Assembly: GCF_009176705.1 (NCBI RefSeq)
Contig: NZ_AP021846.1
Location: forward strand, 1,830,001 to 1,894,000
Source of the DNA: Pseudoalteromonas sp. A25
GTDB lineage: Bacteria > Pseudomonadota > Gammaproteobacteria > Enterobacterales > Alteromonadaceae
Direction: 5' to 3'
Length of the DNA: 64,000 bases
Part shown: positions 30,697 through 63,735 of the stretch, piece by piece
Position numbering within the stretch: the first letter of the stretch is position 1
Layout of the letters: each line of letters opens with the position of its first letter
Made by a program: the position numbers and the translations under genes
The notes under the pieces: model-generated
The model's input: only the letters and a program-made list of their open reading frames with translations
Told to the model about the DNA's origin: nothing
Databases searched by the model: none

Positions 30697-33600
30697 ATGA
30701 ATACAAATATCGTAGCGTCTTTGGTCAAACTGGCTAAGACTCGTGGCAATGATGTCGCATATCAATATTTCTTCGAAGATGGTCAGCCTTGTAAAACACT
30801 CACATACGCTCAACTCGATCATAAAGCCAGGTTGATTGCAGCTGGCCTTAAACCTCACTTTAGCAAAGGCGATAGGGCATTGCTGCTTTACCACTCAGGA
30901 TTTGAGTTTGTTGAAGCATTTTTTGCGTGCCTTTATGCCGGTGTCATTGCTGTGCCTGCATATCCTCCCAAGAAAAATCAAAATATCGATAGGTTACGCA
31001 ATATTATTGAAGACGCGGGCGCTTTAGGTGCGCTGACGACTGCAAAAATATACGAAATTGCAGGGCCATTGTTTGAATCTGAGCAGGGGTTGCAATCATT
31101 GCCCTTGTTTACCACAGATGAACAGCTGTGTAATTGTGCTGCCCCACTTGATTGGCAAGATATAGCTGTACTGTCCGATGACATTGCCTTTTTACAATAT
31201 ACATCTGGGTCGACGGGTAATCCTAAGGGCGTAATTGTTGACCATGGAAACATCATTGATAACGAACAAATGATGAAAGAAGCGTTTGGTCACGATGAAC
31301 ATACGCCGATTGTCAGCTGGTTACCTCATTTTCATGATATGGGACTCATTTTTGGCATTTTGCACCCGATTTACATTGGTTCAAGCGCCGTACTTATGAA
31401 CCCAACCTATTTTTTACAAAAGCCGTTTCGTTGGCTCAAATTGCTTAGTGAGAGCAAAGGAGTAACCTCCAGTGCCCCGAACTTCGCTTACGATTTATGT
31501 GTTGAGACAGTCAAAGAGAGTGAGCTTGCATTGCTCGATCTTTCTCATTGGCGCAGAGCATTGAATGGCGCCGAGCCTGTACGAGCGAGCACTCTTGAGC
31601 GATTTTATCAAAAATTTAAAGCTTGTGGCCTAAAGCGCGAGGCGTTATCTCCGTGCTATGGAATGGCGGAAACAACCCTGTTTGTCACAGGTAATAAACT
31701 AGGAGACAGTGCAAAAATATTGCGTTTGGACGCGAAGAAGCTGCAACAAGGTCAAGCTATACCTATACCAATCACAGAGGATCAGCCTAGCGTCGCGTTT
31801 TGCGATTTAAAACACGATAAGCCAGCAACTGAATACCATGCGGTGTCGTGTGGAATAACATGGCATGACCATGAAATAGCCATTGTTGATCCTAAAAGCA
31901 AACGACGGTTAGACGATGGGTGTGTTGGTGAGATATGGATTAATGGACCGAGTGTTGCAAAAGGGTATTGGCAGCGAGCAGAACAAACAGTAGATGTATT
32001 TGAAGGTTATATAGACTCAGAAGAACATCGGCCTTATTTACGTACCGGTGACCTTGGCTTTTTACATGATGGGGAGCTTTACGTAACTGGCCGTGATAAA
32101 GATGTTTTGATATTTAGAGGAAAGAATCACTATCCACAAGATATCGAGCTTAGCGTTAGCCTTGCTGATAATGCTTTAGACGGCAATGGTAGCGCCGCGT
32201 TTTCAATAACTACCGAGCAGGGTGAAGAAGGTTTAGTGGTTATTCAGCAGGTTAAGCGAACTGCTATCAGAAAGTTAGATACCGATAAGGTATTGTCAGC
32301 CATAACCCAAGCTATCATTGACAATCACGGTATAACGCCTCATGCGCTGTTACTAGTAAAGCCTGGCCGTATTTTGAAAACGTCGAGTGGAAAAATTCAA
32401 CGCCAAGAAAATAAGCGCAATTACTTACAAAATAAATTCGACCCAATTGCGAGTCGCAAAGCACTGAGTAATTCTAACGAACAAAATACAGATAATAACA
32501 ATGTTACTAATGTACCCGGTGATGATGATAAACGGCTTTTAGAGGTGAGCGTGCAACGCGCATTGTGCGAAGTTATTGCTACAGAAATTGAAAGCCAGAG
32601 TGAACAGCTAGACGTTGATGCTTCATTTCAGTCACTGGGTATTGATTCGATGAAAGCCGTGCGTGTGTCTGGTGAGTTGATGGAATTACATGACGTTGAG
32701 CTTGAACCTACCGTTTTGTTTGAATACCCAACGATTGCACTGCTGGCAAAGCATTTATGCGAGTTTGAACAAGTTCAACATGCTTTTATGGGTTCAAAGG
32801 TTGATGCAACGTTTAGACAAAAATCCAATCTTAATAATTCATACAACTTATCTGTTGGTCAGACAGGGCAAGAAGACATTGCAGTAATAGGTATGGCTTG
32901 TCGATATCCCAAAGCAAATAACCTGCAACAATATTGGCAGCTTTTAGCACAGGTGGGCTGTTCAATATCTGCAGCAGACTCATCACGTGAACATCTTTGC
33001 CCTAATTTTGATATGAATAGGTTAGGAGGCTACCTAGACGATATTGATTGCTTTGATCCAACAATGTTTGCCTTGTCGCCCTCTGAGGCTAAGCATATTG
33101 ACCCTCAGCATAGAATACTACTTGAGACGTCATACCATGCCATTGAGTCTGCGGGTTTATTGCCAGCAGAGCTATATGGTCAGGAAGTGGGGGTGTATGT
33201 TGGTATCTCTCAAAATGACTATTTTGGGATCTCTCACAAAGCGCAATCCGAAAACCCATATTTAGGAACTGGAACGGCGTTAAGTATCGCAGCTAATCGA
33301 CTCTCATATACATTCAATTTTACGGGCCCAAGTTTGGCAATTGACACGGCCTGCTCATCGTCACTTGTTGCACTGCACCATGCAATGCAAGCAATGCGTA
33401 ACTCGGATCTGCCCTTAGCTATGGTTGCTGGCGTTAACCTTATTCTTAGCGATGAAGTATCTAATGCTTGTAAAAATGCACAGATGTTGGCACCAGATGG
33501 GTTATGTAAAACATTTTCAGATAGTGCCGATGGTTACGTTCGTAGCGAGGGAGTAGGGTGCATATTATTAAAACCGTTAGCTCATGCACTTGCTGATAAC

Positions 33601-36600
33601 GATCCTATTTACGGTGTATTGAAAGGAAGTGCGATTAATCAAGATGGGCGAAGTAATGGCTTAACCGCCCCCAATGGCATTGCACAGCAGCAAGTGATTA
33701 AGGCTGCATTAGCTGACGCTCAAATAGAACCTGAAAACATCGACTATGTAGAAGCACATGGCACGGGCACTAAGCTTGGTGATCCCATTGAAGTGTCTGC
33801 CTTAAATAAAGTTTACGCGCAAAATCGTAATGCCACTCGCCCTTTGATAGTCGGATCTGCAAAAGCAAATATCGGGCACTTAGAGTCAGGCGCCGGTATT
33901 GCAGGGGTTATTAAAACGCTGTTGTGTTTTGAGCATAACCAGCTTCCTGGTCAACCTCATTGTGACAAGCTAAACACGCACATCCCGTGGCATAAAATTG
34001 CGGTTAGGGTACAAAATCAAACAACGCCTTGGCCCACAAATGATCAAGCGCAGCACTGTGCTGGCGTTAGCTCTTTTGGATTTGGTGGGACTAATGCACA
34101 TGTTATTTGTCAAAGTGCGACACAAAACTTGGCTGCCAATCTTGACTTACAGTCACATAGTTTACCTTACATTTTGCCGTTATGTGCCAAAACCCCCGAG
34201 TCACTGATAGCGTTGGCAAAAAGTTATGGCAATACCTTACAAGGCTTAGATGCTGATAAATTTGATGCGCTTGTGTTGACTGCCGCTCATCGTCCACCAT
34301 TTAAAAAAGGCGTGAGAACCGCGATATTTGCGCTTACTCAAACAGAGCTAGTGGATAACCTGACAAATTTCAATGATCAAGTAGAAGCATGGCAGGCAGT
34401 CCCGCCCAAACAGATATTTTTATTTACAGGACAAGGGACTCAATATGCGCAAATGGGTAAGGCATTGTATGAAACACAGCGTGTTTTCAAAAATGCCATA
34501 GATGAATGTGATGCATTATTAAAAAGTACATTAGGCAAAAGATTAACTGAGGCGCTATATCAGGTCGGTTATGAGCATTTAATCGAGCAACCTAAATGGA
34601 CACAAGTTGCTATATTTGCAGTTGAATATGCACTGGCTAAGTTATTGATAAGCCTTGGCTTAAAACCTGACGTGGTGATTGGTCATAGCGTAGGCGAATA
34701 TGCCGCAGCCTGTATCGCAGGGGTGTTTTCGTTGTCTGATGCAATTACGCTCATATCTACTCGTGCCAAGCTTATGGATGGACTTGAACCGACGGGAGCT
34801 ATGATATCTGCACGATGTGATGCTTCTATCGCCAAACGTTTTGTCTCTGGAAATGAAGAAAACGTTGCTATATCGGCTTTCCATGGCGTAAGTGGTGTAG
34901 TGTTTTCAGGAAGTAACGCAGCGATTGATCAGATTTGTGAGCAATTAAGCGCTAATGAGATTAAATTTAAAGCGCTCAATACGGCAAGAGCTTTTCATTC
35001 GCCATTGATGCATCCGATGCTTGCTGAGTTTGAGCAGGTTGCAAAATGTATTTCATACTCTTCACCTGTTTGTGATTTTATTTCGACTGTAACAGGAAAG
35101 CTTGAGCAACAGGCTTTGAGTACACCAAACTACTGGGTAGAGCAAATAGTTAAGCCCGTAAAATTTGCTGATGCGTTAAATGAGTTACAAAAATTTGCTC
35201 ACTTAACAGTAGTTGAAGTTGGTCCAAAGCCTGTGCTGAGTACGCTGGTACAAGAGAACTTGCCCAAAGCGAAAAGCGAATTTATATCCGTTCTAAGCCC
35301 AAAAGGTGACGATAGGTTGAGGTTATTGGCAGCAATATCTAGCTTCTTTGAGCTAGGGGCGTCAGTTGATTGGCTATCTATCTATCCACAAACCGATTAT
35401 CGGCGTCAACCATTACCTATCTACCCTTTTGCTAAAGAAAGGTATTGGATTGGCAGGGACGAGTTAGTTGCGAGTAGCGAAGCTTCTATTAGTGAGTATC
35501 CACAGACGCAAGACCGCACTGATGCGATTCGCCAGTTTGTACTGAAAACATTGTCAAAACAGTTATCGATTGCTGTTGAAAGCATTGATATTGACCAACC
35601 ACTGCTAGAAATGGGTGTTGACTCATTGATGATCATGCAGGCTGTTAGAGTCTATGAGAAAGAGTTTAAATTAGACTTTAGTGTTCGTCAGTTTTACGAA
35701 GAGTTAAGCTCTGTAGCGCGACTAGTTGAGTATATTGAGCTTAATAGTGACTATTTAACACAGCCTAAGGTTGCTAGCAAAAGTCATCAAGAGTTAGATA
35801 AAAATGTTCAAGATACTAGGAAAGAGTCAGTAGCAGTCAGTGACTCATCTTTAAGCGAACAAGCGATCACCGCTATTTGCCGCGAACAGCTACAGGCAGC
35901 CTCAAACGTAACCTCTGAACAAGCACGAATTAGTGTCGAAGCGATTGCAACAAAGCAACTTCAGATGATGCAAATTGCTTTGACGGGTAATACGCAGTTT
36001 TCAAATAAAGTTACTCAACCTTCTCCTGCGCCCAAATCGGCTCTAGTTCAAAAAAATACCGTGTTACCAGGTTTTCAAGCGAGGCAGATGAGTGCATCAA
36101 ACGACAGTGAGCACATTAAACTTCATCAGTTGAGTTTAGCGAGCCAGTATTGTGCAAAAACAACTAGCTCAAAAGTGAAAGTAAGTGAACACCGAATGCA
36201 TTTAGCCGATTGCAGGGCGTCAGCAGGCTTTAGGCTATCTAGCAAAGAAATGCTTTACCCTGTGTTTTCAAAGCGCTGTGCTGGCTCTCGGATCTGGGAC
36301 ATTGATGACAACGAATACATCGATATAACGATGGATTTTGGGGTTAACTTATTTGGCCATAAGAGTGAATTTATCACCCAAGCATTGTATGAGCAAATTG
36401 ATGCTGGCCTGCAGTTAGGCCTCGCCAGCCCATTGGCGTGTGATGTGGCTGAGCTTATTTGTGAATTAACCTCTTTACAGCGGGCAACGTTTTGTAACTC
36501 AGGCACTGAAGCGGTAATGACAGCAATACGTTTAGCCCGATGCGTTACGAAGCGTTCAAAAATAGTGCAGTTTAATGGCGCTTATCATGGTCATTACGAT

Positions 36601-39600
36601 GGTACGCTCGCGCATCCTGCACCGCAAGAAAATGGTGTAGAGCCAATGTGTGCCGGGGTTCGTCAAGGTGCTATTGCAGATAATCTAGTACTGGATTATG
36701 GCTCAGACGATGCGCTTGAGATCATTAGGCAAAATGCAGATTCAATTGCGGCAGTATTGGTTGAGCCAGTGCAAAGTCGTCATCCACAGTTACAGCCTTG
36801 GGGGTTTTTACATGCCCTAAGAGCCCTGACCCAAGAATTAGATATCGCATTAATATTTGATGAGATGATCACCGGGTTTAGGGCGCACCCTGGAGGAGTG
36901 CAAGCGATGCTTGGGATGCAGGCTGATATGGCGACATATGGCAAGATAGTAGGTGGTGGGTTGCCGATTGGTGTGGTTGCTGGAAGTGCCAAATATTTAG
37001 ATGCGATAGATGGCGGCGATTGGCAATATGGCGATAATTCATATCCAAAAGTTGATACTACCTTTTTTGCGGGGACATTTTGTAAGCATCCTTTGGCAAT
37101 GGCGAGTGCAAAAGCGGTACTCAGTGAGATCAAAAAACGCGGCGCTCAATGCCAAGCTAAAATTGCTGACAAAACAACTTATCTAAAAACGACCTTAAAT
37201 GAATTTTTTAATCGCAATAGCATCCCTATCAGTGTGGAGTCATTTACCTCTTTATTTCGTTTTCGATTTAACCAAAACTTAGACGTTTTCTTTTATGAAA
37301 TGCTCAACCGAGGCGTATTTATTTGGGAAGGACGTAATTGCTTTTTAAGTGATGCACACACCGATGAAGACGTAGAAGCAGTTATTTCTGCTGTAAAAGA
37401 CAGCGTGCTTGCTTTAAAAGCAGCAGGCTACTTTGGACAAAACGATAACAGCAAGCACTTTGCTAGCAATAATGAAACATTACGTTTGACTCAAGCTCAG
37501 CAGCAATTGTTGGCTTTAGCGTTGCGTAGCACTCAAGGTGCTTGGGCATATCAGCTTCAGGGGACGGTAAAGCTGCAAGGTGTGCTTAATATCGACAGTT
37601 TAATTGAGGTAGTAGATAGACTATATCAAGTACTTCCTATTTTGAGTTACGGTGTTGACGTTGAAAGATTAAGTCTTAAAAAACAAGCTGCAGATCCGCA
37701 AAGACTTCGCTTTGAAAAGTGCGCAGTTAATGAAGACATCAGTGCAAAACTTGCTGATTTGCGATACGAAACATTTGACTTTGGTTCGCAGCAGTTATGT
37801 CGGTTTATTCTCATAGAGTCGCAGCAAAATTGCCATTATCTGACTATCGTTGCCCACCATTTGTTATACGATGGCATGGCAATCACTCAACTTATTAATG
37901 CTATTGCCCACTTTTACAATGGTGCGCTTGCGTCGGATGAGGCGCAGTTTGTTGACTTTACAGAGTATTTAGCAGCATTAAATGCGTATTGCAGTTCAAC
38001 GCGTTATGACGTTGATGAGCAGTATTGGTTAAGTCAACTTAGAGATGCAGAACCAGTCGCCTTACCAACGAAAACGCATGCACCGAGTACACCGAGTTAC
38101 GAGGTTGAGTCTGTAAAATACACAATTACACATCATGCAATTGATAACCTGAAAAGTCTTGCGAAGGAGTCTGGCGCTGGGGTTTTTGCAACGCAGCTCG
38201 CAATTTATATTTTATGGTTAAACAAGTTAACACGTCAGCCCATTGTCTCTGTGCTTATTCCTGTATCTTGTAGGCAATTGTTATCGGCCAATTATGATAG
38301 CGAAAACTTAGATAGCGGGTTAGTGGGTTATTGTACAAACACACTGGCCATTGTTATTGATGTTGATGCTCAACAGTGCGTAGAAGAGTTAGTAAAAGCG
38401 GTACAAAATCAACTGTTGGATGCCTTTGACCACCAATTTTATCCATACTCTGAACTTACAAACAAACCCTTAGCACTGCCTACTACCATGTTTAACATGG
38501 ATAAAGTCCAAACCTTACCCCAGTTTAACAACTTGGTATGCAAACAGGTTGAGAGTCTGACTAGATATAATCAGTTTGAATTAACGTGCAACGTAACGTG
38601 TGTTGGTGAGCATTGGTCATTACAACTTGAATTTAATCGCGCTAGATTTGATAGAAGTTGGATAGACAATAGTGCCCACCAGCTAATAACTCTATTTGAT
38701 AGTTTAAAAGGCTCAGATGCTTTAAATCAAAGGGTTTGCTCACTGCTGGATCAGCAAGCCTATCAAGATGTTTTGTTAACGCCACTGCAAAATGCACAGG
38801 CTGTTGATACAAGTTCACAATCGCCACGAGGCGTTTTTTTGGATGATCTGAAGCATATTGTCAGACATTCATCGCAAAAGGTGGCCGTACGCTGTGGCGA
38901 CACTCAGCTCACTTACGCGCAGTTAGACGCCCGTATTAATCAAATGGCGAATTACTTTAAAGAAAAAGGCATAAGTCGCGGCGACCTCGTGGCGCTTGCT
39001 TTACCAAGGCAGACCGAGTTATTGGTGAGCGCTCTGGCGTTGCTTAAAGTTGGAGCAAGTTACTTACCACTCGATTTAGCGTATCCAAAAGACCGTATTA
39101 TCGATATTTTGGAGGATGCACGTGTATCGCTGCTTGTTTGCGACGGTACAACCGAAGATGATTCTTTGATTAAAAAACTCTGCTGCGCTGCTATCAATTT
39201 AGACAATGATGCAGCAAAGATTGGGGCACAATCAGTCACCGCGATGCAGTACATGATATCGCCAGAAGATACAGCCTATGTGATTTACACCTCTGGCTCT
39301 ACTGGGCGGCCCAAAGGGGTTGAGATATCACACGGGGCGTTGTCTAACTTTCTTCATGCAATGCGTCAAAAACCAGGAATGAATAGTCAGGATAGATTAC
39401 TGGCTGTAACAACCTTTGCTTTTGATATCGCCATGCTAGAGCTATTTTTACCCCTCACCGTGGGCGCAGAAACAATCATAGCGAATGAGCAGATATGTAG
39501 CGACCCTGAAGCGATTGTTGATCACTTGTCTGAATATTCAATCACTATCATGCAAGCCACACCGACACTATGGCGCCTGCTATTAAACACAAGTAAGCAC

Positions 39601-40710: not shown

Positions 40711-40712
40711 CG

Positions 40713-43700
40713 ATGGATAATTTAGCGATAGAGCGTTTTTTAGCGGATTTAGATAGCCGTGGTATTTATGTGTATTTGCAAAACGGGAAGCTGAAGCTGA
40801 GGACAAAGTTAGAACGAGTCCCTCAAGAGCCTTTAGCACAAATAAAGCAATTCAAAGAGCAGCTGATTAGTTATTTGAATAGCCAAAGCCAAAAGCAAGG
40901 GCGTTTGTCGAGTGCGCAGCAGAGAATTTGGTTTATTTCTCAATATGAACAGCAATCTTATGCATATAACATGGCGGGTTTGATTAAGTTCTCTCGTACT
41001 ATCTGCGCTAGCAAATTGAACCTTGCTATTAATAACGTGTTGTCTTGCAATGACATATTAAAAACTAATTTCTTTGAATGTGATGAAGGCACCGTTCAAA
41101 GGGTTAATGAAAACTACACCTTTTCTTTAGACTTATCACGTATCACTGGGACGCCGTGTAAAGAACAGCTAGTTGAAAAGCTGCACAATGAGCTTAGGTA
41201 TTGCTTTGACTTATCAAATGAGCTGCTAATTAGGGGCACCTTGTTTGTGGATGGATCAGAGAACCAAGGGCAGTGGTTATATTTAGCGATGCACCATATT
41301 ATTGCCGATGGCTGGTCAGTTGAGCTTCTGGTTAAAGCTGTGTTGGAAGAGTTAAATGACTGCACTGAACAACGTGCCAACACCTTGCAATATCAAGATT
41401 ATGTTTATTGGGAAATGCAGTTTCGCAAAACCGATGAGTACCATAATCAACTGGCTTATTGGCAAAATCAACTGACTGACTTGGCGCTTTTTGAATTACC
41501 CACTTGCCATGCGCGCGGTGCAAATAAAAGCTATCAGGGTGATACAGCGCGCTTTACTATTCAAAGCGTTGTGTTAAAGAGGTTTGAACAGACATGTAAA
41601 AAAATCGGTGTAACGCCATTCGTTGGCTTTTTGAGTGCCTACTATGTTTTGCTACATCGGTATAGTGATAAGCACGATATTACGGTGGGCGTGCCAGTTT
41701 TAAATCGTACTCAAGCTGAATTCGAAAGTATGATTGGTTGTTTTATTAACACGCTGCCGATGCGGGTAAAACTTGAATCATCACCTAACTTTGCGCAACT
41801 AGCGTTACTAGTTAAGGGTATAGTTAAAGATGGTTTAGCAAATCAAAACGTAGCTGTTGAAGACATCATTGCAACGCTAGAGCTGCCCAAATCTAGTGCG
41901 CACTCAGCTTTGTATCAGATATTGTTTAACTACAATGGTGTGACGAGTGAGTGTTTATCATCAGCAGGGTTGTCAGCTGAGCTGATTCCCCTTGAAAATC
42001 AAAGTGCTAAATACGATTTAACGCTTACTTTGTCATCTTCTGAACGTGGTGTAAGCGCAGAAATAGATTACAGCGCGCATTTATTTGATAGCCAATTTAT
42101 TAACATGTTTGCGTCAGATTTTGTCGCGTTGATTGAAGAGCTTAGTGATGAAGGCGAGCAGCAAAACATTGCCACAATAAGCTTACCAAGTGTGGCGCGC
42201 TCTGTTGAGTTATTAGCACGGCAATCTAATAGTAGAGCTTTTGTAAGTATAGTTGAACGTGTTATTGAGCACGCACAAAAGGACCCGCAAAAAATTGCGT
42301 TAATCGAAGGGGCTGAAAAGCAAGTCAGTTATGCGCAGCTTGATAGAGTAAGTGCGACATTAGCTAGAGCGTTAATTACAGACTCGCGTTTTTCTCAGGA
42401 TAAGCCTGTTGCTTTATTGGTTAATCGCTCAGCCAATTGCATTATCGCCATGTTGGGTATTATGCGCGCTGGTTTGGCATATTTACCGATTGAACAAAGC
42501 ACACCGATAAACCGCATTCTAGAAGTTTTAGAACAAGCAAGTTGCGATCAATTAATCACTATGAATCGCAATACTTTATCAGATAATGGATCAATGGCGT
42601 TGGCCCAAGCGAGTGTCGATGTCAATTTTTTTGATGCGCTGCTAAGCGAAGCCAAACAAAAAAGTGAAGTAAATGTCAGTATCAGTGCTCAAGACTGTGC
42701 CTATGTGATGTTTACATCAGGCTCTACTGGTACACCTAAAGGTGTTTTAGTGCCTCACCGTGCATTAACAAGTTATGTTAATGGGGTAAGTGAGGTTATA
42801 GAGTTTACTGCAAATACCAGATCAGCAGTATTAACCGGACTTGCAACAGACTTATGCCTAACTGGGGTTTACCCAGTGTTGGCGGCAGGAGGAAGTATCG
42901 TCCTAATTGGTGCTGATACAGCGCAGTTAGAGCCACAACTGATTGCCGATGAACTTGCCAAACAACACGTCAATTTTGTAAAAATAACCCCATCTTTTGC
43001 CAATGAGATATTGCCAGAAGTGGTCAACTTACAAAGAACTGTAGCAGTCGATCAATGGGTCTTTGGTGGCGAACCATTACCTCAGTTACTAGTTAACTCA
43101 ATCTGTCGTAACTTCCCTAATGCCAGTATTTTTAATCATTATGGTCCGACCGAAACTTGTATCGGCGTGACCGCGTGTAAAGTGACTGATAGCAGTGATT
43201 TTAACTGGGGGAGCTTCAGTATCGGAAAGCCATTTTCGCACGTACAGCTAAAGATATTGAACAGCAAGTTACAAAATGTACCTGCAGGATCGCCAGGTGA
43301 ACTGTTCATAGGAGGAGAATGCATTGCGCTTGGATATATCAATGTGCCGGATCACAGTACAAGTGCCTTTGTAACGATAGGAGGGCAGCGTTTTTATCGT
43401 TCAGGAGACAAGGTTAGGCTAAACCCACAAGGAGCGTTGGAATACTTAGGCAGGTTAGATAATCAATTCAAAGTAAGAGGGTTTAGAGTCGATGTTCAAG
43501 ATATAGAATCTAAGTTAAATAGCCTAAACCAAGTTAGAACTGGGGTTGTGACCTGTGTAAAACGTGAGGGAGATGCAACCCTAGTCGCATTTGTTGTCCC
43601 TGAGCCAGCAGAACTAAGTAAAGCTGCACTTAAACAAACCATTAAAACTGATTTAAAGCTACATTTACCAGAGCCAATGGTACCAAGTGTTATTGTGTTG

Positions 43701-53600: not shown

Positions 53601-56600
53601 GCATTTGCGCATTTGTTGTGCTAGCCGCAAAAGCAACATTTGATGACTTAACATCTGAAGTTCAGGAGTATTTAAGAAAAACACTGCCTGAATTTATGAT
53701 ACCGACCAAAGTTATCGCTGTGTCAAAACTCCACCTAACAGGTAACGGTAAAGTCGATAAAAAAGCGTTGTTATCATTAGACTCGCAAGAACTTGAAATG
53801 GCGCCTTTTAGTGCTCCAAGTTCTGAATCTGAGAGGCTAATCGCAGCGTGTTTTGCAAAAGTACTTAATTTGGAAGAAGTGGGTCGAGATGACCACTTTT
53901 TTAGGTTGGGTGGGCATTCATTATTAGCGGCGCAAGCGGTTGCTCAACTGCGCGAAAATGCAAAACTAAACATTACGCTTAAAGACTTATTTCAACGCCC
54001 ACAAGTTAAGTCATTAGCGATGCTTGCCAAGCATAATCAACATATTGAAAACCAACCAATTGACGAAATAGCTCTTAAATGTCGAGAGCATAACAAAGCA
54101 ACTCCGTTATCGTTTGCACAGCAGCGACTATGGAGTATCGATAAGCTTCAACAAGGCAGTTTTGAATATCATATGAGCTCGGCCTTCGAGCTCTCAGGTG
54201 AATTAAATATTGATGCATTTACACAAGCTTGGTATGCGCTGATGAAGCGCCACGAGGTGCTAAGAACGTGCATTATAACGTCGCAGCGTGGTGAACCATA
54301 TCAACAAGTACAGCAAGACTATGAGGATATTGTTCATTATGTTGATGCCACAACACTGACAAAAACACAGCAACAAACTCTTTGGCTTAAAATACTCAGA
54401 GATGACAGACAAACTCCATTTAGGCTTGATCAAGATGTGATGTTGCGTGTGACGCTATTAAAGCTGGGCACTAACAAATATCGACTACTCGTTAACATGC
54501 ACCATATTGCCAGTGATGCACAATCGTTAACTATCTTGGTTAAAGAATTTACCCAGTTTTATCACAGTTATGCATTTACGCATGCCTTACCCGATACACT
54601 AAGAACGCCGTTGCCCATTCAATACCGAGACTATGCCATTTGGCAAAGGGGTGCCTTGACTCAACAAACTCTAGAGGAGCATGGCCGGTTTTGGTTGAAC
54701 ATGCTTGATGGCGCGCCACCTGTTCACCAACTGCCTTTAGATAAGCCAAGAAGTAAGCTTTTGGTAACTCAAGGTGCGCTATATAAACAGCAGTTTGAAA
54801 AGCAGCTCAGTGCTGCCATTCGTGCACATTGTCAACGTTTAGACGTAACATTATTCACTTGGCTACATACGGCATTTTCGCTGGCGGTTGCACGCTTTAG
54901 CCAGACAGACGATGTGGTAATTGGTAGTCCGTTTTCTGGGCGCAACCATACTCAGCTAGAACATTTAATTGGTTTCTTTGTAAATACATTGCCTATACGC
55001 ACAGTGATCCCTGAGGATGTTAGTTTTGAGGCATTACTCGTTCAACAAAAGCACCTTTTGCACGATATTCATATGCATAAGGAAATGCCATTTGAACAGA
55101 TCATTGAAAGGCTACAGTTAAATAGAGACTTGAGCCATCAAAGCGTGTTTCAGCTTACGTTTTCTGTTAATTCAAATCAGCAAACTGCGCTTAAGTTACC
55201 TGCATTAGAAGCGAAACCTATAGATGAACATGCGCTGAGCGTTAAGTTTGATATTGAACTGAGCTGCCATGAAAACGATGACCACATGCAATTCAATTGG
55301 GTTTACAACAAGGCGGTATTTGATAAGCAAACAACTATGTCTTTGGCTAATACATTTTCAGTGTTAGTTGAGCAAATAGTAACGCATCCTAATACACCGG
55401 TGAGACAGCTTTGCTTACTCACCCAATCACAGGCGATACAACAAGTTATTAGCGGGAGGTATACAGAGCAAACCGACACCCGTACGGTAATTGATGAATT
55501 TATTGATAGAGCGACATCATTACAAGACAAGCCTGTACTGATTGAACCTAATAATAACGAAAGCATATGCTACAACCAACTACACGTGCGCAGTAGTGAG
55601 TTGGCGCAGTATTTGATTAATAATGGCTTAAAACCTGAGCAACGTGTGGTAGTAAGTATGGCGTTTAGTGATAACTTACTTGTCGCTATGCTTGGTATTT
55701 TAAAAGCAGGAGGGTGCTATGTGCCGGTTGACCCAAACTACCCGCAACAAAGGATTGGCTTTATAAGTGAAGACTGTAAGGCGGCATTTGTTATTACCTA
55801 CCACGAGCACGCTGATAAATTTAGTCACGTTAAAAACTCCAGTGCGCCTATTATTTGTGTTGACGATTGTCGAACAGCCAAGAAGATAAGCGAGCAAGCT
55901 CAGCAAAAATGCACCTTGCCAAAAGTTAATGCGCAACAGTTGGCATATGTAATTTACACCTCAGGTACAACGGGAAAGCCCAAGGGTGTGATGATCCCAC
56001 ATCGTGGTTTAATGAACCTGTGTTCATGGCATAACCATACATTTCAAGTCAGTGAAAATAGTGTTGCAAGCCAAACGGCCAATATTGCCTTTGATGCAGC
56101 AGCATGGGAAGTGTGGCCGTATCTATGCGCAGGAGCAAAGATACTTGCAGTGCCTAGACCTACATTAAATGCGCCGATCCAATTCGCAGAACTATTGTCT
56201 CAGTACAAAGTAACGCATTGCTTTTTAGCCACACCAATTGCCGAAGCTATATTAGCGGATGAGGGTTTTACCCCGCAGTATTTGAATTACTTGCTGGTCG
56301 GTGGGGATAGGTTAAATAGAGTTGATGTGTCAGCTTTACAATTTAAGGTCGTCAATAACTACGGGCCTACAGAAGCATCGGTGGTGACAACGTCTGGATT
56401 GGTAACAGAGTCAAAAACGCAGCCAGATATTGGTAAACCAGTAGACAATACCAGCCTATTTATACTTGATAAGCAAAGGAAACCTGTACCGACAGGCATG
56501 ATAGGTGAGCTATATATTGCAGGTTCAGGTTTGGCTCGGGGTTACTTGAATCAAGATGATTTGACCGCATCACGGTTTATTACGCTAACCACGCCAGCCA

Positions 56601-59600
56601 ATGAGTCTGTAAGAGCTTATCAAAGTGGTGATCTGGTCAGGCAACTCGAAAATGGCAAAATTGCCTATGTGGGAAGAGTTGACAATCAAATCAAATTACG
56701 GGGCTATCGCATTGAACTTAGTGAGATTGAACAAGTGCTTGGTTCATGTCCTGAGGTTAATGAATGTGTTGTACAGGTGTGTTCGTTAAACGGCGGAGCT
56801 AAACAGCTAGTTGCATTTTTGTGTTTTGATGCAAAGTATCATTGTGAAACGCATATCATCAATATCGCGAAAAAGAGGGTATCAAAAGCGTTACCAAGCT
56901 ATATGCATCCTCGCCATTATGTTGCACTCAATACTGTGCCACTTACCCCTCATGGAAAAATTGACCATCAAGCATTGATCCGAGAGTTTAAGTCGCTTGA
57001 CGAGCAAAGTGCACGTCAAAGCGTTGTCCATGAGCAAAGTGATAGTAGTCAAACCCTAGAAGGTAAATTACTCAACCTCTATCACGGTGTATTGAACGCT
57101 AAGGCGCTGCGAATTGATGACGACTTTTTTGCTTTTGGTGGTGATTCGATACTGAGTATCCAAATTGCTAGCCGAGCACGTGCTCTAGGAATGCAAATAT
57201 CAGTGGCTGATGTATTCAACTACAATACGGTTGCGCGTCTTGCTGAGCATTTAAATGAGCAAAACAGCACCGAAGATATCGATCAGCCAGTGCCAGAACA
57301 TAACGGGATTATCGAGCCTTTACCAATACAAAAATGGTTTTTTGAACAAAATTTTGAACAACCAACACACTGGAACCAAGGGATTTTACTCTCGATAGAC
57401 AAGTCTGTGAGCCTCAGCCACATCGAAGCCGCTTTAGAAAACCTAATTCAGCTGCACGACAGCTTGCGTCAGGTTGTAACTCATCAAGGTGAGTTGTTCG
57501 TCAAAGCAGTTATTGCAGTGCATGAAGTAATGAAGGTTGTTGATGTTAGCAGCAAGCAAAACTGGCAATCATCGCTATTACATGAAGCAAATAACGCCCA
57601 ATCAAGCTTTGAGTTTAATGCTGGGCCACTGCTTAGGGTTTGCTTTATTAAGACGCCACAAGCTGAATCTGATAATCGCTTATTAATCATTGCACATCAC
57701 CTGATCATAGATGGAGTCTCTTGGCGTATCTTATTAGAAGATCTTCAGCAAGCGTGTGAGAGCATCAGTAATGGGCATCAAATTGCTCTACCAAAAAGGA
57801 CTGTATCGCTTAAGCAGGTGAGTCAATTTTATTCAGAGTTAGGGCAAAAAAATAACGAGTTAAAACGCTGGCAGTCTCATGTAAAGTGTGCAGAAGCAGG
57901 CACCATGTTGAAGCTAAAGGCCTTAGAAGCGGGGCAACAGGCAAATCACATAACGTACAAGTACACATGTTTACCAGAGTTAACAGGTCCATTGTTAAAA
58001 GAAGCCAATGTTACTTACAACACTTCAGTACAGGTGTTGTTGCTAAGTGCGTTGCAATGGTGTGCTATGCAGTACTACCAAACTCATTCTCAAATTATCA
58101 TGCTAGAAGGGCATGGCCGAGAGATTCTGAACCAGTCGAAAAAAGCGCAGCGCAGTGTGGGTTGGTTTACTGCGATGTATCCGTTTCATTTATTCAGTAA
58201 TGCGGTTTCTTTGCACGAAGTTATTTGTACGATTAAAGAACAGCTCGCAGATACGTCTAAGGTAGCCAGTAGCTATGGAGCCTTGCGTTATTCAAACCAA
58301 TCAAGAGACATTCGTCAGTCACTGCACATTGATACAAAGGATAAAATATTTTTTAATTATTTAGGGCAGCTAGACAATGCAATTAAAAGCGATGGACAGT
58401 TCAAAGATGCATTCGAGGACATAGGGGGGCTTCAAAGCGCTTGTAACCATCTTTATTACGGCCTGCAAATAACCGCAGCTATAAGCGATGGCGCGTTAAA
58501 GCTGAGTTTTGATTATGACAGCCAGAGGATTGATCATAATGAGGTAGAGCTGCTCGCTCTTAATTTTGAGCAAAGTTTAAAAGCAGTATTAACCCATTGT
58601 GCACATACAGCGTTTAGACAATACACACCGAGTGATTTTGCATTATTAAGTGATATATCGCGGTTGCAGTTAGAAAAGCTGGTAGCACCATACTCGAAAA
58701 AAGTGATATCTGATATTTACCCTCTTAGTATGCTGCAAAAAGGCATGTGGCTTGTGAGCCAGCGAAACTCATTGTGCAACGATATTCCGTACTTAGAGCA
58801 AGTTTCAATGGTACTGAGTGGGGAAGTAGATGTTGAAGCATTTAGTTATGCTTGGCAACGGGTTATACAAACTCACAGTATATTGAGAACCGCATTTGTA
58901 AAAGGTGTTGATGAGCCATTACAGTTGGTAATTGAAGATATTGAGTTACCTTTGCAAATTGATGAGCAAGAGTCGTTTTTATTGAGCGATACAAGTGAGA
59001 GTGACTATCTAAAAGGTATCGCTGAGCGTGAATACCGTCAGGGAATTGATTTGACTAAAGCGCCTTGTATGCGCTTAAGGTTGCTACCATTTGGCGAAGA
59101 TCGATATGGCTTTATTTGGACTTATCACCATCTGATTTTAGACGGCTGGTCATTACCCACACTTTTTGCCAACTTACTGGCTTTTTACTCAGCTCGAATA
59201 AATGCTCAGTATATTCAGATTAGAGAAGATCATTTTAAAGATTACATCGCATATTTAGCTGAGCAAAATGCTGCTACCGAGCAGTCGTTTTGGCATCGCT
59301 ATTTATCGAACGTATACGAACCGACATTAGTGAGTGAGCATATTCAGTGTGATAACAGCGATGCACCAAAGCCGCTGATGGCGCAATTAGATGTTGCTTT
59401 AGATATCCAGCAGCAGTCGAAGTTAGTCAGTTTTGCAAAAACACACGGATTTACCATAAATCACATTTTACAGGGTGTGTGGGGTTATTGGTTGAGTATT
59501 TGTTGTGATAAAGACTACGCGTTATTTGGTCAAACCATCTCCGGTCGGCCGAGTGATTTAACGCACGTTGAGGAGCGAGTCGGGTTATATATCAATACGC

Positions 59601-62600
59601 AAGCGGTAAAACTGGAAACCCATAAAAACGACGATGTTTTGACCTTTTTAAATCGTGTAAGGCAAACCCATTTACAGTTGTCAAACTTTACCCATAGCGC
59701 TTTAACAAATGTGCACGATTGGTCTGGCATTGATAATAGCACCGCGCTATTCGACGCTTTATATGTATTTGAAAACTATCCAACAGACCCCTTAGATAAT
59801 GTTACAGACGTACCTTTTACCGTGCAGAGCCAAAATTATATTGATAACACTCACTATCCACTGACTTTGGTTGCTGGCGATTCGGATGGGTTAACACTGA
59901 CTCTTTGTTATGATTTAAGCGTCTTTAGCCAAAAAGTTGCACAGCATTGCTTAGATACCTTATGCCATTTACTTAAGCTTTTTGTGACTCAGCCCTACGA
60001 GCAGTTATATAAGCTCCCGTTAATTGCAGATCCTGAGGTAACGGCACCCATAGATACTTGTAGCTTAGGCATAGGTCAAAAGGGTTTTGTTGATTTTGAT
60101 ATGTCGCAAAGCATACTTGAGCGCTTTGAGCAAATGGTCGCTGTATATCCAGATAAGATTGCCCTTAAGTTTTATAAACAGGGTGAATATGCTGCTATGA
60201 GTTACACACAACTCAACCAACGAGCGGATCAATTGGCTGGTCACCTATCTAAAGCCCTTTACAAGTCGCTTGCACACATGCCGAAGCAGCCTATCTTCGC
60301 GATTTGTTTAGATAAAGGTTTTGAACTGATAATTTCGGTGCTAGCGTGTTTGAAGCTTGGCGCTGCCTATTTAGTCATATCTCCACAATTACCTCATGAG
60401 CGGCGTTTATTTATCACAGACAACGCCGGTGTTATTGGGCTTGTTAGTGCAAATAACGAATGGCAAGGCGAATTACCGAAAACTGATTATTTTGATATCA
60501 ATGCAATTACACATAGTTCAACGGCTGATCTAAAACCATATAGGCAGTTAATAACTGAGCAATCGCTGTGTTATGTCATTTACACATCCGGCACCACCGG
60601 CACACCCAAAGGAGTGATGATAGAGCAAAAAAGTGTGCTCAATTATGTTGCATTTCTAAGTCGGTGCTATGGCATAACGCATACAGACAACTATTTACAA
60701 TTTGCCAGTAGCAGCTTTGATGTGTTCGCAGAAGAAATATTTTGTTCATTGCTCAACGGAGCGACATTGGTGATGACTGATGCCAATCAGTTATTGACAG
60801 CAAGGGGATTGGCCAAAGTATCTAACGACTGTTCGCTTACTTTGATGAGTTTACCAACGGCGTATTGGCATATGTTGGCGATGGAGAAGGTAAATTTAAG
60901 CACTCAATTAAGGGTTATCACCATTGGTGGTGAGCAAATGCAAAGAGCGGCGCTGTCTGCTTGGCAACAACATTACGGTACATCTATTCGTTTAATAAAT
61001 GCTTATGGACCGACTGAAGCCACCATATCAACCACATTAAAAGACGTAACTAATGCACGTGATGAAAGAGTGTCAATAGGGTTACCAGTCGCTGGGACGC
61101 ATTTGGCAATTTGCGACAAATACCACAGAGCTTTACCTAATTACTTGTCTGGCGAGCTTTATATTAGCGGTGTTTGTCTTGCTAAAGGTTACATAGCAGA
61201 TACACAAAAAACCGATAGTGTTTTTATTTATGATAGGACCAGTAAAACCAGATGGTATAAAACTGGTGATAAAGTACGAGTAAACAAAGACCAAGAAATA
61301 GAATACTTGGGTCGTTTAGACGAGCAGGTAAAGGTAAGAGGTTACCGGATAGAGCTTGGAGAAATAGAACGTAGTTTATTATTAAATGAGCTAGTGACTC
61401 AATGTGCTGTCGTGGTTAGACAGGACGGCAATGGCTTAAATCAATTAGTGGCCTTCTTGGTCAGTAACGCCGATGATCTTGAGTTGTCAACTATTCGCGC
61501 TACTTTAGCTCAGCGCTTACCAGATTATATGGTCCCTCAGTATTTTGAAATACTTGATACTTTGCCATTTACCAATAACGGCAAAATCGACAGAAAATCG
61601 CTCGTTGAAAAAGCACAAACTATACAAACAAAACTAAACTACTGTGAGGGTGAGTACCTTACACCACTTCAGCAAGCATTATCAGACAGATTAAAAGCGT
61701 TACTTAAGTTAAAGGATATAAGTGTACGCGATGATATCTTCATGTTAGGAGCACATTCGTTACTTGCTATGCGCTTAGTTGGTGAGTTAAGTGATGAGTT
61801 AGATATTGACTTACCTATTGATATCGTCTTTGAAAATAAAACAATTGCAACGTTGAGCCAGGCAGTAGAAAAGTTAACTAAAGAGAGCTCTACAGAGCCT
61901 GAAGAAAAAACGCTGCTATGTTTACAAAAAGGTCAAAAAGATTACAAGCCTATCGTGTTGATTGCGGGCGCTGGTGGCTTATTAATCTCATATCAAAGTC
62001 TGGTCCAAGGACTAGATAAGCGCATTCCCGTGTTTGGTTTGCAGCCTAACGAGATAGCAGATAAAGATGAAGTATTAAGCTCGGTAAGTTTAACGGCGAG
62101 CCATTACTTATCAGAGCTAGATAAATTGAACACGAGTGGTGATATTCACATCGTTGCGCATTCATTTGGTAGTTTTATTGCTCACGAAATGGTGCAACAG
62201 GCAAAGCATAAAACGCATATTAAACTATCTTTAACCGTATTAGACACACCAGTGCCAACACAGGTAGATAAACCAACTAGCGATGAACAATGCAATCAAA
62301 TAATGTTAGAAAACATAATGGCATTCTTCTCAGTGCCTTTGTCTGAAGAGCAAAAATGCGAGTATGCAGGCCTAAATCAAGCACAAAAGATGGGGTGGGC
62401 CTCTCGTATTCTAAATGCCTCAGGGTATCGCTTTTCGATTTCTCAACTCAGCTGTTTCTCCAAAGTGTTTTCTGCACAGCTAAATGCACCCGTTGCGCTA
62501 ATGCCACTTTTCCCTCTTGACACAATGGAGATTATTAAAGCCAATGAGACCAACGAGTTCGAAGGCCAGTTGATAAAGCCAAGCATGGGGTGGGATAGCT

Positions 62601-62713
62601 TATGCAACGAAACAACTTGCTATGAAGTTGAAGGTAATCATTTGAGCATATTGAAAAAACCACACGTGGACGCTGTCGTGAGAATTTTAGAAAAGAATTA
62701 TGTTTTGCATTAA
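50615..62713 (+). CDS. NRPS, modules 5-7 and release: docking-C-A(Thr)-PCP-C-A(Leu)-PCP-E-C-A(?)-PCP-TE
   Basis: 4032 residues; ATG overlaps the previous stop (ATGATGA), giving translational coupling. Residues 1-60 again look like a TubC-type docking domain. C domains: H220-H-IISDG, H1296-H-IASDA (last G changed to A) and H2838-H-LILDG. The last follows an epimerisation domain (about 2230-2660; H2361-H-LIIDG, EGHGRE, VGWFTAMYP) and is of the D-accepting type. PCP serines S1102, S2178 (GGDS, as usual before E) and S3715 (LGAHS). Pockets: module 5 D-F-W-N-I-G-M-V-H, the threonine code; module 6 D-A-W-L-L-G-N-V-V, one step from a leucine code; module 7 D-V-E-M-T-G-A-I-S, not recognised. All three A domains carry TSGTTG. 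The thioesterase (about 3770-4032) has S3850 in AHSFGS, D3877 and H4009, a complete triad for hydrolysis or ring closure. Confidence 0.9.
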   Translation: MMNEQTLHIENLIGEALAAGITLYEKNGGLAFKQKADFPPELKSRIVANKDQIIAYFVQQKSVKCAETGLSQEIVPAVRPAKLPLSFAQEGLWFVEQLQGGEQYYMSATFKLIGDLDEAVFKQTIAQIVARHETLRTQFVADEHGVPQQVILPAITVPLRVVDAYQLEKSNKNNQQALLEKVSQLIEEFKNESLNLEVGPLFRVLLVKLETEYRLTFNMHHIISDGASLDCLMGEVETIYSGLLKDKLYKTQPLPIQYVDYALWQRQTLSEAYLRNALTALNDKLSDLEPILSLPTDRPRPSVQTNCGRIYRQQLDSAIINKLKQQVAQHQVTPFMWVLSCFMLFIGRISQTNHVAVGTPVLGRNHPSLNNQIGLYANTIVIPAELEDDSEFCQWLQKQKESILEAFEYDVVPFDKLVEALNCKRDLSHHPLVQILFTLEQTSRSSFELPNLTIEEITPLSSQQCAIKCDLELNVQLSNQSMVLNWKFDDALYDIETITHWADSFVLMLNTVCTNASTPCARIPLLKQNEIQKVLQQGQQYNDVQWPNTENLVTLFEHQVRQHPKRLAITDEHGSMSYHELNARANQIAHILISKGVRKEQLIPISVSRNADMIATLLAILKAGCAYVPIDPDYPADRIEYIVKDVGGELLVCDNTSVGVFNSFGMTVVNIHDFAKHDTPVDVDNPSVGLLPQDLAYMIYTSGTTGRPKGVQIEHRNVVRLLFTEPRLFDFDEQDVWTLFHSFCFDFSVWEMYGALLFGGRLVIVSKELSKDSVAFAKLLLEQKVTVLNQTPSAFYVLQDSMLKLNDVMRAQSCIRYVIFGGEALHCAKLLPWAEQFNDCKLINMYGITETTVHVTYKQITLNEIAQGASNIGTPIPTTTCYVLDKYLQPLPYGAIGELYVGGEGVCRGYWQKESLNQQRFITNPFCNDNSKLYKTGDLVRLLCNGELLYVGRIDDQVKVRGYRIELGEIENQLRTHPRLGEAVALLKQDKTLGASICAFVVLAAKATFDDLTSEVQEYLRKTLPEFMIPTKVIAVSKLHLTGNGKVDKKALLSLDSQELEMAPFSAPSSESERLIAACFAKVLNLEEVGRDDHFFRLGGHSLLAAQAVAQLRENAKLNITLKDLFQRPQVKSLAMLAKHNQHIENQPIDEIALKCREHNKATPLSFAQQRLWSIDKLQQGSFEYHMSSAFELSGELNIDAFTQAWYALMKRHEVLRTCIITSQRGEPYQQVQQDYEDIVHYVDATTLTKTQQQTLWLKILRDDRQTPFRLDQDVMLRVTLLKLGTNKYRLLVNMHHIASDAQSLTILVKEFTQFYHSYAFTHALPDTLRTPLPIQYRDYAIWQRGALTQQTLEEHGRFWLNMLDGAPPVHQLPLDKPRSKLLVTQGALYKQQFEKQLSAAIRAHCQRLDVTLFTWLHTAFSLAVARFSQTDDVVIGSPFSGRNHTQLEHLIGFFVNTLPIRTVIPEDVSFEALLVQQKHLLHDIHMHKEMPFEQIIERLQLNRDLSHQSVFQLTFSVNSNQQTALKLPALEAKPIDEHALSVKFDIELSCHENDDHMQFNWVYNKAVFDKQTTMSLANTFSVLVEQIVTHPNTPVRQLCLLTQSQAIQQVISGRYTEQTDTRTVIDEFIDRATSLQDKPVLIEPNNNESICYNQLHVRSSELAQYLINNGLKPEQRVVVSMAFSDNLLVAMLGILKAGGCYVPVDPNYPQQRIGFISEDCKAAFVITYHEHADKFSHVKNSSAPIICVDDCRTAKKISEQAQQKCTLPKVNAQQLAYVIYTSGTTGKPKGVMIPHRGLMNLCSWHNHTFQVSENSVASQTANIAFDAAAWEVWPYLCAGAKILAVPRPTLNAPIQFAELLSQYKVTHCFLATPIAEAILADEGFTPQYLNYLLVGGDRLNRVDVSALQFKVVNNYGPTEASVVTTSGLVTESKTQPDIGKPVDNTSLFILDKQRKPVPTGMIGELYIAGSGLARGYLNQDDLTASRFITLTTPANESVRAYQSGDLVRQLENGKIAYVGRVDNQIKLRGYRIELSEIEQVLGSCPEVNECVVQVCSLNGGAKQLVAFLCFDAKYHCETHIINIAKKRVSKALPSYMHPRHYVALNTVPLTPHGKIDHQALIREFKSLDEQSARQSVVHEQSDSSQTLEGKLLNLYHGVLNAKALRIDDDFFAFGGDSILSIQIASRARALGMQISVADVFNYNTVARLAEHLNEQNSTEDIDQPVPEHNGIIEPLPIQKWFFEQNFEQPTHWNQGILLSIDKSVSLSHIEAALENLIQLHDSLRQVVTHQGELFVKAVIAVHEVMKVVDVSSKQNWQSSLLHEANNAQSSFEFNAGPLLRVCFIKTPQAESDNRLLIIAHHLIIDGVSWRILLEDLQQACESISNGHQIALPKRTVSLKQVSQFYSELGQKNNELKRWQSHVKCAEAGTMLKLKALEAGQQANHITYKYTCLPELTGPLLKEANVTYNTSVQVLLLSALQWCAMQYYQTHSQIIMLEGHGREILNQSKKAQRSVGWFTAMYPFHLFSNAVSLHEVICTIKEQLADTSKVASSYGALRYSNQSRDIRQSLHIDTKDKIFFNYLGQLDNAIKSDGQFKDAFEDIGGLQSACNHLYYGLQITAAISDGALKLSFDYDSQRIDHNEVELLALNFEQSLKAVLTHCAHTAFRQYTPSDFALLSDISRLQLEKLVAPYSKKVISDIYPLSMLQKGMWLVSQRNSLCNDIPYLEQVSMVLSGEVDVEAFSYAWQRVIQTHSILRTAFVKGVDEPLQLVIEDIELPLQIDEQESFLLSDTSESDYLKGIAEREYRQGIDLTKAPCMRLRLLPFGEDRYGFIWTYHHLILDGWSLPTLFANLLAFYSARINAQYIQIREDHFKDYIAYLAEQNAATEQSFWHRYLSNVYEPTLVSEHIQCDNSDAPKPLMAQLDVALDIQQQSKLVSFAKTHGFTINHILQGVWGYWLSICCDKDYALFGQTISGRPSDLTHVEERVGLYINTQAVKLETHKNDDVLTFLNRVRQTHLQLSNFTHSALTNVHDWSGIDNSTALFDALYVFENYPTDPLDNVTDVPFTVQSQNYIDNTHYPLTLVAGDSDGLTLTLCYDLSVFSQKVAQHCLDTLCHLLKLFVTQPYEQLYKLPLIADPEVTAPIDTCSLGIGQKGFVDFDMSQSILERFEQMVAVYPDKIALKFYKQGEYAAMSYTQLNQRADQLAGHLSKALYKSLAHMPKQPIFAICLDKGFELIISVLACLKLGAAYLVISPQLPHERRLFITDNAGVIGLVSANNEWQGELPKTDYFDINAITHSSTADLKPYRQLITEQSLCYVIYTSGTTGTPKGVMIEQKSVLNYVAFLSRCYGITHTDNYLQFASSSFDVFAEEIFCSLLNGATLVMTDANQLLTARGLAKVSNDCSLTLMSLPTAYWHMLAMEKVNLSTQLRVITIGGEQMQRAALSAWQQHYGTSIRLINAYGPTEATISTTLKDVTNARDERVSIGLPVAGTHLAICDKYHRALPNYLSGELYISGVCLAKGYIADTQKTDSVFIYDRTSKTRWYKTGDKVRVNKDQEIEYLGRLDEQVKVRGYRIELGEIERSLLLNELVTQCAVVVRQDGNGLNQLVAFLVSNADDLELSTIRATLAQRLPDYMVPQYFEILDTLPFTNNGKIDRKSLVEKAQTIQTKLNYCEGEYLTPLQQALSDRLKALLKLKDISVRDDIFMLGAHSLLAMRLVGELSDELDIDLPIDIVFENKTIATLSQAVEKLTKESSTEPEEKTLLCLQKGQKDYKPIVLIAGAGGLLISYQSLVQGLDKRIPVFGLQPNEIADKDEVLSSVSLTASHYLSELDKLNTSGDIHIVAHSFGSFIAHEMVQQAKHKTHIKLSLTVLDTPVPTQVDKPTSDEQCNQIMLENIMAFFSVPLSEEQKCEYAGLNQAQKMGWASRILNASGYRFSISQLSCFSKVFSAQLNAPVALMPLFPLDTMEIIKANETNEFEGQLIKPSMGWDSLCNETTCYEVEGNHLSILKKPHVDAVVRILEKNYVLH

Positions 62714-62772
62714 CATTTGTAAAATATTTGTTCTACATTGTACACCTTACCTAGTTAAAGGATGGGAATAAA

Positions 62773-63735
62773 ATGGACCAACTACTATCAGTAAAGATGG
62801 ATACAAACCAAGCGGATATCGATCATCGGATCCACGACCTTTCATCTGAAAAGCAAAGCGGTTTAGCGTGGGTAAAAAACCACGTTGATAAGGTTAACCA
62901 GTGGGTAAATGATGATGGATTTGCGGTGTTGCGTGGCCTGAACATAGTCAGTAGCAACCAATTTAGCACGATATTAGAGACTATTTTTGGTGAGCCTTTA
63001 AGCCAATATGTGTATCGTTCTTCTCCTCGCACAGCGATGAGAAACAATATATACACCACAACTGAATATCACTGCGATCAAGTCATACTTCAACACAATG
63101 AAAATGCTTATTCAAACAAATGGCCAATGCGAATGGGTTTTTTCTGTGTGGTCCCCGCTAAAAGTGGTGGCGCAACGCCACTGGCAGATAGCCGTGAAGT
63201 GTATCAAAACTTACCAATCGCATTACGCGATAAGTTTGAGCAACAGGGGGTTATGTACGTTAGAAACTACGGTGATATTGACCTGCCTTGGCAAGAAGTG
63301 TTTCAAACACACAGCAAGCATGAGGTAGAAACCTACTGTAACGCGAATGGCATTGAATATGAGTGGCACGATGACCGGCTACAAACACGGCAAAAAAGAC
63401 CCGCTGTGGCTAAACATCCGCAGACGGGCGAGAAAGTTTGGTTTAACCAAGCACACCTATTCCATGCCTCTAGTATTGATGGCCAATCTTCTGAGCTAAT
63501 GCGAACAAGTATTGGTGAAGAGAGATTACCTCGTAATGCTTTTTACGGCGACGGCAGTGCAATCGAGGATGACGATATACAAACAATAAACCAAGTGTAC
63601 AAAGATGCGACGTTTTCTTTTCCTTGGCACAGAAACGATATTCTATTGCTTGATAACATGCTGTTTACCCATGGTCGACAAGCTTATACAGGAACGAGGA
63701 AGGTACTCGTTGGCATGGCGAAGATAGTGGGTTAA
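62773..63735 (+). CDS. SyrP/TauD-like Fe(II)/2-oxoglutarate oxygenase (probable amino-acid beta-hydroxylase)
   Basis: 320 residues, AGGATGGGA before the ATG, 59 bases after the NRPS stop. The facial triad is H100 and D102 (EYHCDQ) and H300 (FTHGRQ), with R302 well placed to hold 2-oxoglutarate. The region around PAKSGGATPLADSREVY is typical of the SyrP/AmbC branch of the TauD superfamily. SyrP hydroxylates carrier-bound aspartate in syringomycin synthesis; with an Asp module in the cluster, beta-hydroxylation of that residue is the natural guess. It could instead act on an Asx or another residue, or on the acyl chain. Confidence 0.8.
   Translation: MDQLLSVKMDTNQADIDHRIHDLSSEKQSGLAWVKNHVDKVNQWVNDDGFAVLRGLNIVSSNQFSTILETIFGEPLSQYVYRSSPRTAMRNNIYTTTEYHCDQVILQHNENAYSNKWPMRMGFFCVVPAKSGGATPLADSREVYQNLPIALRDKFEQQGVMYVRNYGDIDLPWQEVFQTHSKHEVETYCNANGIEYEWHDDRLQTRQKRPAVAKHPQTGEKVWFNQAHLFHASSIDGQSSELMRTSIGEERLPRNAFYGDGSAIEDDDIQTINQVYKDATFSFPWHRNDILLLDNMLFTHGRQAYTGTRKVLVGMAKIVG

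Follow-up and report, generated by a model that had tools for sequence, protein, structure and literature searches.

Iturins and mycosubtilin are lipopeptides with a β-amino fatty acid as starter, seven residues and a ring closed through the β-amine. In the iturin systems, the malonyl transferase is encoded separately, and the peptide starts with Asn-Tyr-Asn and contains several D residues. Closest to the locus analyzed here is the Pfl cluster of Pseudoalteromonas flavipulchra DSM 14401, described in January 2026 in Synth Syst Biotechnol (PMC12819058; papers cited by PMC number were available to us in part, and statements on them refer to these parts). Its products, flavipulchrins A and B, are given as cyclo[3-aminododecanoic or 3-aminoundecanoic acid-Gly-Asp-(β-OH-Asn)-Asn-Thr-D-Leu-Arg]; the antiSMASH prediction reported for the cluster was Gly, Asp, two Asn, Thr, D-Leu, and Phe. 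The flavipulchrin peaks told a promoter-swap strain apart from an inactivation mutant; in the wild type, they were of lower intensity. For the single enzyme steps, the authors give a proposal, in which PflD, a free-standing TauD enzyme, hydroxylates Asn-3, and they leave unexplained how D-β-OH-Asn arises without an epimerization (E) domain. No activity up to 1 mM was seen against seven bacterial strains (PMC12819058). The available main text of that paper contained no match for transporter, hydrolase or lactamase.

In the open-licence literature, searched by titles and the first part of abstracts, no product of the cluster was found to be described outside PMC12819058, and the compound name flavipulchrin occurred in that paper alone. 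A hybrid NRPS-PKS pathway has been reported as conserved among 13 strains of P. luteoviolacea (PMC5069768), and this is perhaps a Pfl-type cluster. Related starters are known from cyanobacterial laxaphycins, where an FAAL is combined with KS-AT-ACP and an aminotransferase (AMT) (PMC8471579). Furthermore, D-stereospecific resistance peptidases near NRPS clusters were found by Li et al. 2018, as described in PMC9231227.

We analyzed a stretch of 64,000 nucleotides from Pseudoalteromonas sp. A25, referred to as the window. A first-pass annotation had proposed a cluster for a β-amino-acyl heptapeptide therein for which no described compound was known to its author; this is wrong in view of the published flavipulchrins A and B (PMC12819058). 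Both the cluster type and the kind of product are already known from a sister species. New, as far as the published text available to us goes, are the near-constant adenylation pockets across the genus and four further genes linked to the cluster.

Genomes, alignments and searches

Genomes with a TauD match of at least 71% identity to protein D were counted as cluster-positive, which applied to 42 of 108 genomes of the genus including that of A25. Clusters were fetched from all 41 relatives except G084 and G049, and the pocket survey thus comprised 40 clusters (A25 and 39 relatives). Nine-residue codes were taken at the positions homologous to those which we take to form the pocket of PheA. 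In the search with the aminotransferase region of protein A, 7995 candidates were scored, giving 6533 matches, of which the best 120 were listed.

Gene and domain organization of the cluster

The cluster comprises three giant open reading frames, A, B, and C, and the small gene D, all in the same direction. Gene A (30586..40710, + strand) encodes a PflA-like starter synthetase, for which domains, motifs and pocket indicate the order FAAL-ACP-KS-AT-ACP-AMT-C-A(Gly)-PCP. Its probable start codon is the ATG at 30697, as in the first-pass annotation, in agreement with a 3337-aa form of the protein in the protein collection. Pfam assigned two AMP-binding, three PP-binding, and one C domain as well as KS (aa 763–1217), AT (aa 1277–1561), and class-III aminotransferase (aa 1891–2247) domains. 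The KS signatures DTACSSS, HGTGT, and NIGH are present, and so is the AT signature GHSVGE with AFH, which we take to mark the malonyl type. The YGK motif of the AMT, the carrier serines, and the HSFGS motif of the thioesterase (TE) were likewise all found.

Gene B (40713..50618, + strand) encodes a PflB-like NRPS with a TubC docking domain and three C, three A, and three PCP domains by Pfam, arranged as C-A(Asp)-PCP, C-A(Asn)-PCP, and C-A(Asn)-PCP. For the PflC-like NRPS encoded by gene C (50615..62713, + strand), Pfam gave a TubC docking domain, four Condensation-fold domains, three A and three PCP domains, and a TE, from which the order docking, C-A(Thr)-PCP, C-A(Leu)-PCP-E, C-A(Arg by orthology)-PCP-TE is predicted. 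The third Condensation-fold domain (approximately aa 2195–2650; approximate limits 57197..58564, + strand) is most likely an E domain, judged by the motif HHLIIDGVSW and by its matches to solved sequences. Ten of these were matched, with four PvdL entries best and tyrocidine synthases 1 and 2, tyrocidine synthetase A (2xhg), bacitracin synthase 3, and gramicidin S synthase 1 among the others; 2xhg and 5isw are presumably E-domain structures. Gene D (62773..63735, + strand) encodes a protein assigned to TauD by Pfam, a TauD/TfdA dioxygenase which its orthology with PflD suggests to be an Asn-3 β-hydroxylase. A scan for promoters and terminators upstream of gene A returned nothing above shuffled sequences. 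The starter followed by C-A-PCP, the six further modules ending in a TE, and the D-Leu, as put forward in the first-pass annotation, are borne out by these domains and motifs.

Equivalence with the Pfl cluster

P. flavipulchra NCIMB 2033 = ATCC BAA-314 has these four genes in an identical order (locus L012, the same place as in G034), and ATCC BAA-314 and DSM 14401 are, as we assume, one type strain. The synthetases of A25 are 45–53% identical to these orthologues, protein D is 75% identical, and the P. flavipulchra orthologue of protein A aligns over aa 35–3374. Five of the seven pockets are identical, the Gly pocket differs at two positions (DILQWGLIW in P. flavipulchra vs. DILQLGMIW), and the Asp pocket at one (DLTKVGHVG vs. 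DLTKVGHIG). A25 thus shares with Pfl the gene set and order, a FAAL-ACP-KS-AT-ACP-AMT starter fused to the first NRPS module, and all seven pocket predictions (Gly-Asp-Asn-Asn-Thr-Leu-Arg, with residue names from the published product). Also shared are the lone E domain after Leu, the terminal TE, and the stand-alone TauD dioxygenase downstream (PMC12819058); the two differ in their synthetases, with identities of only 45–53%. We consider it very likely that the locus is the flavipulchrin cluster of another Pseudoalteromonas species, so that no new compound class is needed. Given the divergence of the synthetases, fatty-acid length and stereochemistry could differ in A25.

This divergence, together with a chemistry read from genes, would also allow for a β-amino lipopeptide outside the described ones, with another final residue or hydroxylation pattern. 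Such a product is improbable, because five pockets match the solved system exactly, the prediction for the Gly and Asp pockets is unchanged, and pocket seven does not vary among the 39 readable clusters, P. flavipulchra included. An antifungal cluster of the iturin/mycosubtilin family or of the occidiofungin type, as suggested by the common FAAL/KS/AMT starter logic, the seven-residue peptide, and two listed aminotransferase homologues named "iturin family lipopeptide synthetase A", is hardly credible, since the AT lies in cis within protein A, there is a single E domain and no Tyr pocket, and the line-up Gly-Asp-Asn-Asn-Thr-Leu-Arg contradicts it from its Gly-Asp-Asn start onwards. As for antifungal action, the activity section of PMC12819058, as available, names seven bacterial strains, all unaffected, and no fungi.

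The comparison with iturins in the first-pass annotation is loose. The β-amino fatty acid starter, the number of residues and the ring through the β-amine are common to iturin, mycosubtilin and the A25 prediction, but residues and epimerization pattern differ. Moreover, the built-in AT, noted there as a difference from iturin systems, is nothing special and is carried by many homologues. Among the best 120 of 6533 homologues of the aminotransferase region, the first 22 were the A25 protein and close relatives with at least 72% identity, from Pseudoalteromonas where named. The other 98 were mostly 56–62% identical, many of them with an AT domain, and two bore the iturin family name in the source. 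By our own count of the matches listed, an organism was named for 29 of these 98; 15 of the 29 were cyanobacterial, and the rest included Pyrinomonadaceae, Chloroflexota, Ktedonobacteria, an Alteromonadaceae, and Aliikangiella. Judged by these sequences, the FAAL/KS/AT/AMT starter logic is widespread and not a peculiarity of iturins. The FAAL starters of the laxaphycin/puwainaphycin type resemble that of A25 in combining FAAL, KS-AT-ACP, and AMT for a β-amino fatty acid (PMC8471579), and among the matches listed cyanobacterial aminotransferase regions were about 57–61% identical to that of protein A. In contrast, their peptide differs from the predicted one, and the Lxa starter functions are spread over several proteins, whereas here they are united in one (PMC8471579). 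The alterins and ogipeptins, heptapeptide lipopeptides of Pseudoalteromonas, were rejected as candidates due to their residues Leu, Arg, Dab, Dhb, and OH-Dab, which do not correspond to these pockets (PMC7764243).

Adenylation pockets and proposed assembly

The nine-residue codes of the A25 modules are DILQLGMIW, DLTKVGHIG, DATKVGEVG, DATKVGEVG, DFWNIGMVH, DAWFLGNVV, and DVESTGAIS. Those of modules one to six agree, to our understanding of such codes, with Gly, Asp, Asn, Asn, Thr, and Leu, in keeping with the initial reading Gly, Asp, Asx, Asx, Thr, Leu. The seventh residue, given there as unknown although its module had been recognized, has the pocket DVESTGAIS; in the published orthologue, Arg stands at this position (PMC12819058).

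Across the 40 clusters, these pockets hardly changed. The Thr pocket DFWNIGMVH and the seventh pocket DVESTGAIS were each found in 39 of 40 clusters, with one unreadable, and the Leu pocket reads DAWFLGNVV in 39 and DAWFMGNVV in one. Three forms each occur for Gly (22, 9, and 9 clusters; L/W and M/L variation) and Asp (18, 11, and 11; I/V variation). V/I variation gives two forms for Asn-3 (31 and 8) and for Asn-4 (33 and 6), again with one unreadable cluster each. The predicted core was therefore kept while the synthetases drifted. Among the 39 relatives, its constancy at 43–71% synthetase identity suggests that selection favors precisely this molecule, and nonetheless the published compound had no effect on the bacteria tested.

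By analogy with the published proposal, assembly in A25 would start with the loading of a medium-chain fatty acid onto the first ACP by the FAAL, followed by addition of a single malonyl unit by KS-AT and conversion of the β-keto group to a β-amine by the embedded PLP-dependent aminotransferase. The seven NRPS modules would then add Gly, Asp, Asn, Asn, Thr, Leu, and Arg, with Leu converted to D-Leu by the E domain and Asn-3 presumably β-hydroxylated by protein D. Finally, the TE would close the ring between the Arg carboxyl group and the β-amine. Such a macrolactam had been suggested at first pass, and the product of the orthologous cluster was solved as a ring of this kind; the hydroxylation, which had been tentatively placed on Asp, is found on Asn-3 in the published compound (PMC12819058). 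A search for a C domain epimerizing Asn-3 in the cluster was negative: the C domain behind the Asn-3 carrier is 39–40% identical to the next two C domains and 20% to C7, the C domain behind the E domain of protein C. This is in line with the published LCL assignment (PMC12819058).

Distribution in the genus Pseudoalteromonas

When named genomes were scanned with protein D, 69 loci were obtained, 24 of them with at least 71% identity and all of these from Pseudoalteromonas; some TauD match was present in 59 of the 108 genomes of the genus. The order A, B, C, D was found in all 39 fetched relatives, a recurrence far beyond chance, with best-segment identities to A25 of 52–71% for A, 44–66% for B, 43–67% for C, and 71–85% for D. 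Some frames are damaged, either by decay or by assembly error: G045 and G062 have broken frames for both B and C, G077 has a shortened B and G046 a slightly shortened one, and the ABC and SPFH genes of G046, described below, contain in-frame stops.

Four further genes linked to the cluster

Gene D is followed in the same direction by genes for an S12-fold hydrolase, a DUF697 protein, an ABC exporter, and an SPFH protein (contig positions 1893816–1899096, mostly beyond the window). The exporter scored 354 bits against TIGR01194 "cyclic peptide export ABC transporter", with a curated cut-off of 286. In all 39 fetched relatives the hydrolase and DUF697 genes stand behind D, and the exporter was visible in 31 of them, being cut by or beyond the fetched edge in the other eight. 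All four genes were detected in 42 of 42 cluster-positive genomes; among the 66 other genomes of the genus, S12 was detected in none (E cut-off 1e-60), DUF697 in one (1e-30), ABC in one (1e-150), and SPFH in two (1e-40), in counts that ignore kinship. The order D-S12-DUF697-ABC-SPFH on one contig and within 7.2 kb was likewise found in 42 of 42.

Two neighboring genes served as controls. An upstream Spo0M-like gene is present in 30 of the 42 cluster-positive genomes and adjoins the cluster only in A25 and five relatives, and a LysE-like gene further downstream adjoins it in none of the 25 other genomes with a match. The block stays together while its surroundings change, and the functional unit is probably an eight-gene cassette reaching about 5.4 kb past the TauD gene. 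It is located on contigs of about 1.3 Mb in G007, G052, G062, and G106 and on a 3.9 Mb contig in A25. Instead of a new compound, the locus thereby poses a sharper question, why four further genes travel with the cluster, and these are direct handles on what the molecule is for.

In P. denitrificans (G014), three of the four downstream genes had weak matches. This species carries a different synthetase cluster (L153–L154) with its own DUF697, ABC, SPFH, and TauD relatives, which was rejected as Pfl type because its A-like protein is only 31% identical and the motifs at the end of the A domains differ. The case of G014 suggests that the accessory set is common to more than one lipopeptide.

The S12-fold hydrolase lipoprotein

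The 5′ part of the hydrolase gene lies at 63816..64000 (+ strand) and continues to contig position 1895189 (from 1893816). A lipobox (LASC, LTSC or LTAC) was found at the start of 40 of 40 copies (A25 and 39 relatives), and the SxxK and YxN motifs are intact. Among the best 120 of 422 matches, those with at least 50% identity were from Pseudoalteromonas where named, and the next were about 30% identical. The third motif reads YSG in all 15 genus members of a 67-row alignment, and a His stands at its place in 51 of 52 rows from outside the genus. Seven of the 15 genus rows were taken from the protein collection, and some of these represent second copies; YSG is therefore a mark of the genus family and not of the cluster copies alone. 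A second relative with 57–64% identity lies elsewhere in seven cluster-positive genomes, which weakens a strict linkage of the hydrolase to the cluster.

A structure model from 16 close relatives reached a pLDDT of 36, and one from the 67-row alignment a pLDDT of 91. The latter has an S12/PBP-like fold, with nearly tied matches to a Pyrococcus PBP homologue, D-amino acid amidase, LACTB, ClbP, DD-peptidase, and alkaline D-peptidase. As fold searches with this model could not tell apart relatives of the D-peptidase, DD-peptidase, ClbP, and esterase types, no substrate is claimed; an action on a D residue would fit the model. With the D-stereospecific resistance peptidases, the hydrolase has in common the S12/PBP-like fold with SxxK and YxN and a gene tied to the cluster for a D-residue peptide (PMC9231227). 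It differs from them, set beside them by description, in being a lipoprotein and in having YSG at the place of the HxG found in most homologues. A simple role in self-resistance is disfavored by the lack of antibacterial activity of the published compound (PMC12819058). Also, the strain that yielded the intact ring has a sequenced relative with this gene, so that the hydrolase does not fully destroy the ring.

As a speculative reading of the eight genes as one unit, for which we see only a small chance, the genus-specific YSG lipoprotein might open or recycle the exported ring at D-Leu or D-β-OH-Asn outside the inner membrane, and the DUF697 and SPFH proteins might assist the exporter. If so, ring opening would yield the real active form, or the hydrolase would recycle the ring, and inactivity of the intact ring would be expected.

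Further observations in the genome and the window

Two more TauD relatives are located in the A25 genome at G000:C1:1537752-1563100, one of them within a 3075-residue open frame, a possible sign of a second synthetase cluster. Within the window, biotin-synthesis-like genes were found at 14829–19199, where a class-III aminotransferase gene on the − strand lies opposite genes for BATS/radical SAM, class I/II aminotransferase, and methyltransferase proteins. Another hydrolase gene of PF00144 (7159–8286) is located far upstream of the cluster, and an integrase-core (rve) transposase-type gene at 5999–6820.
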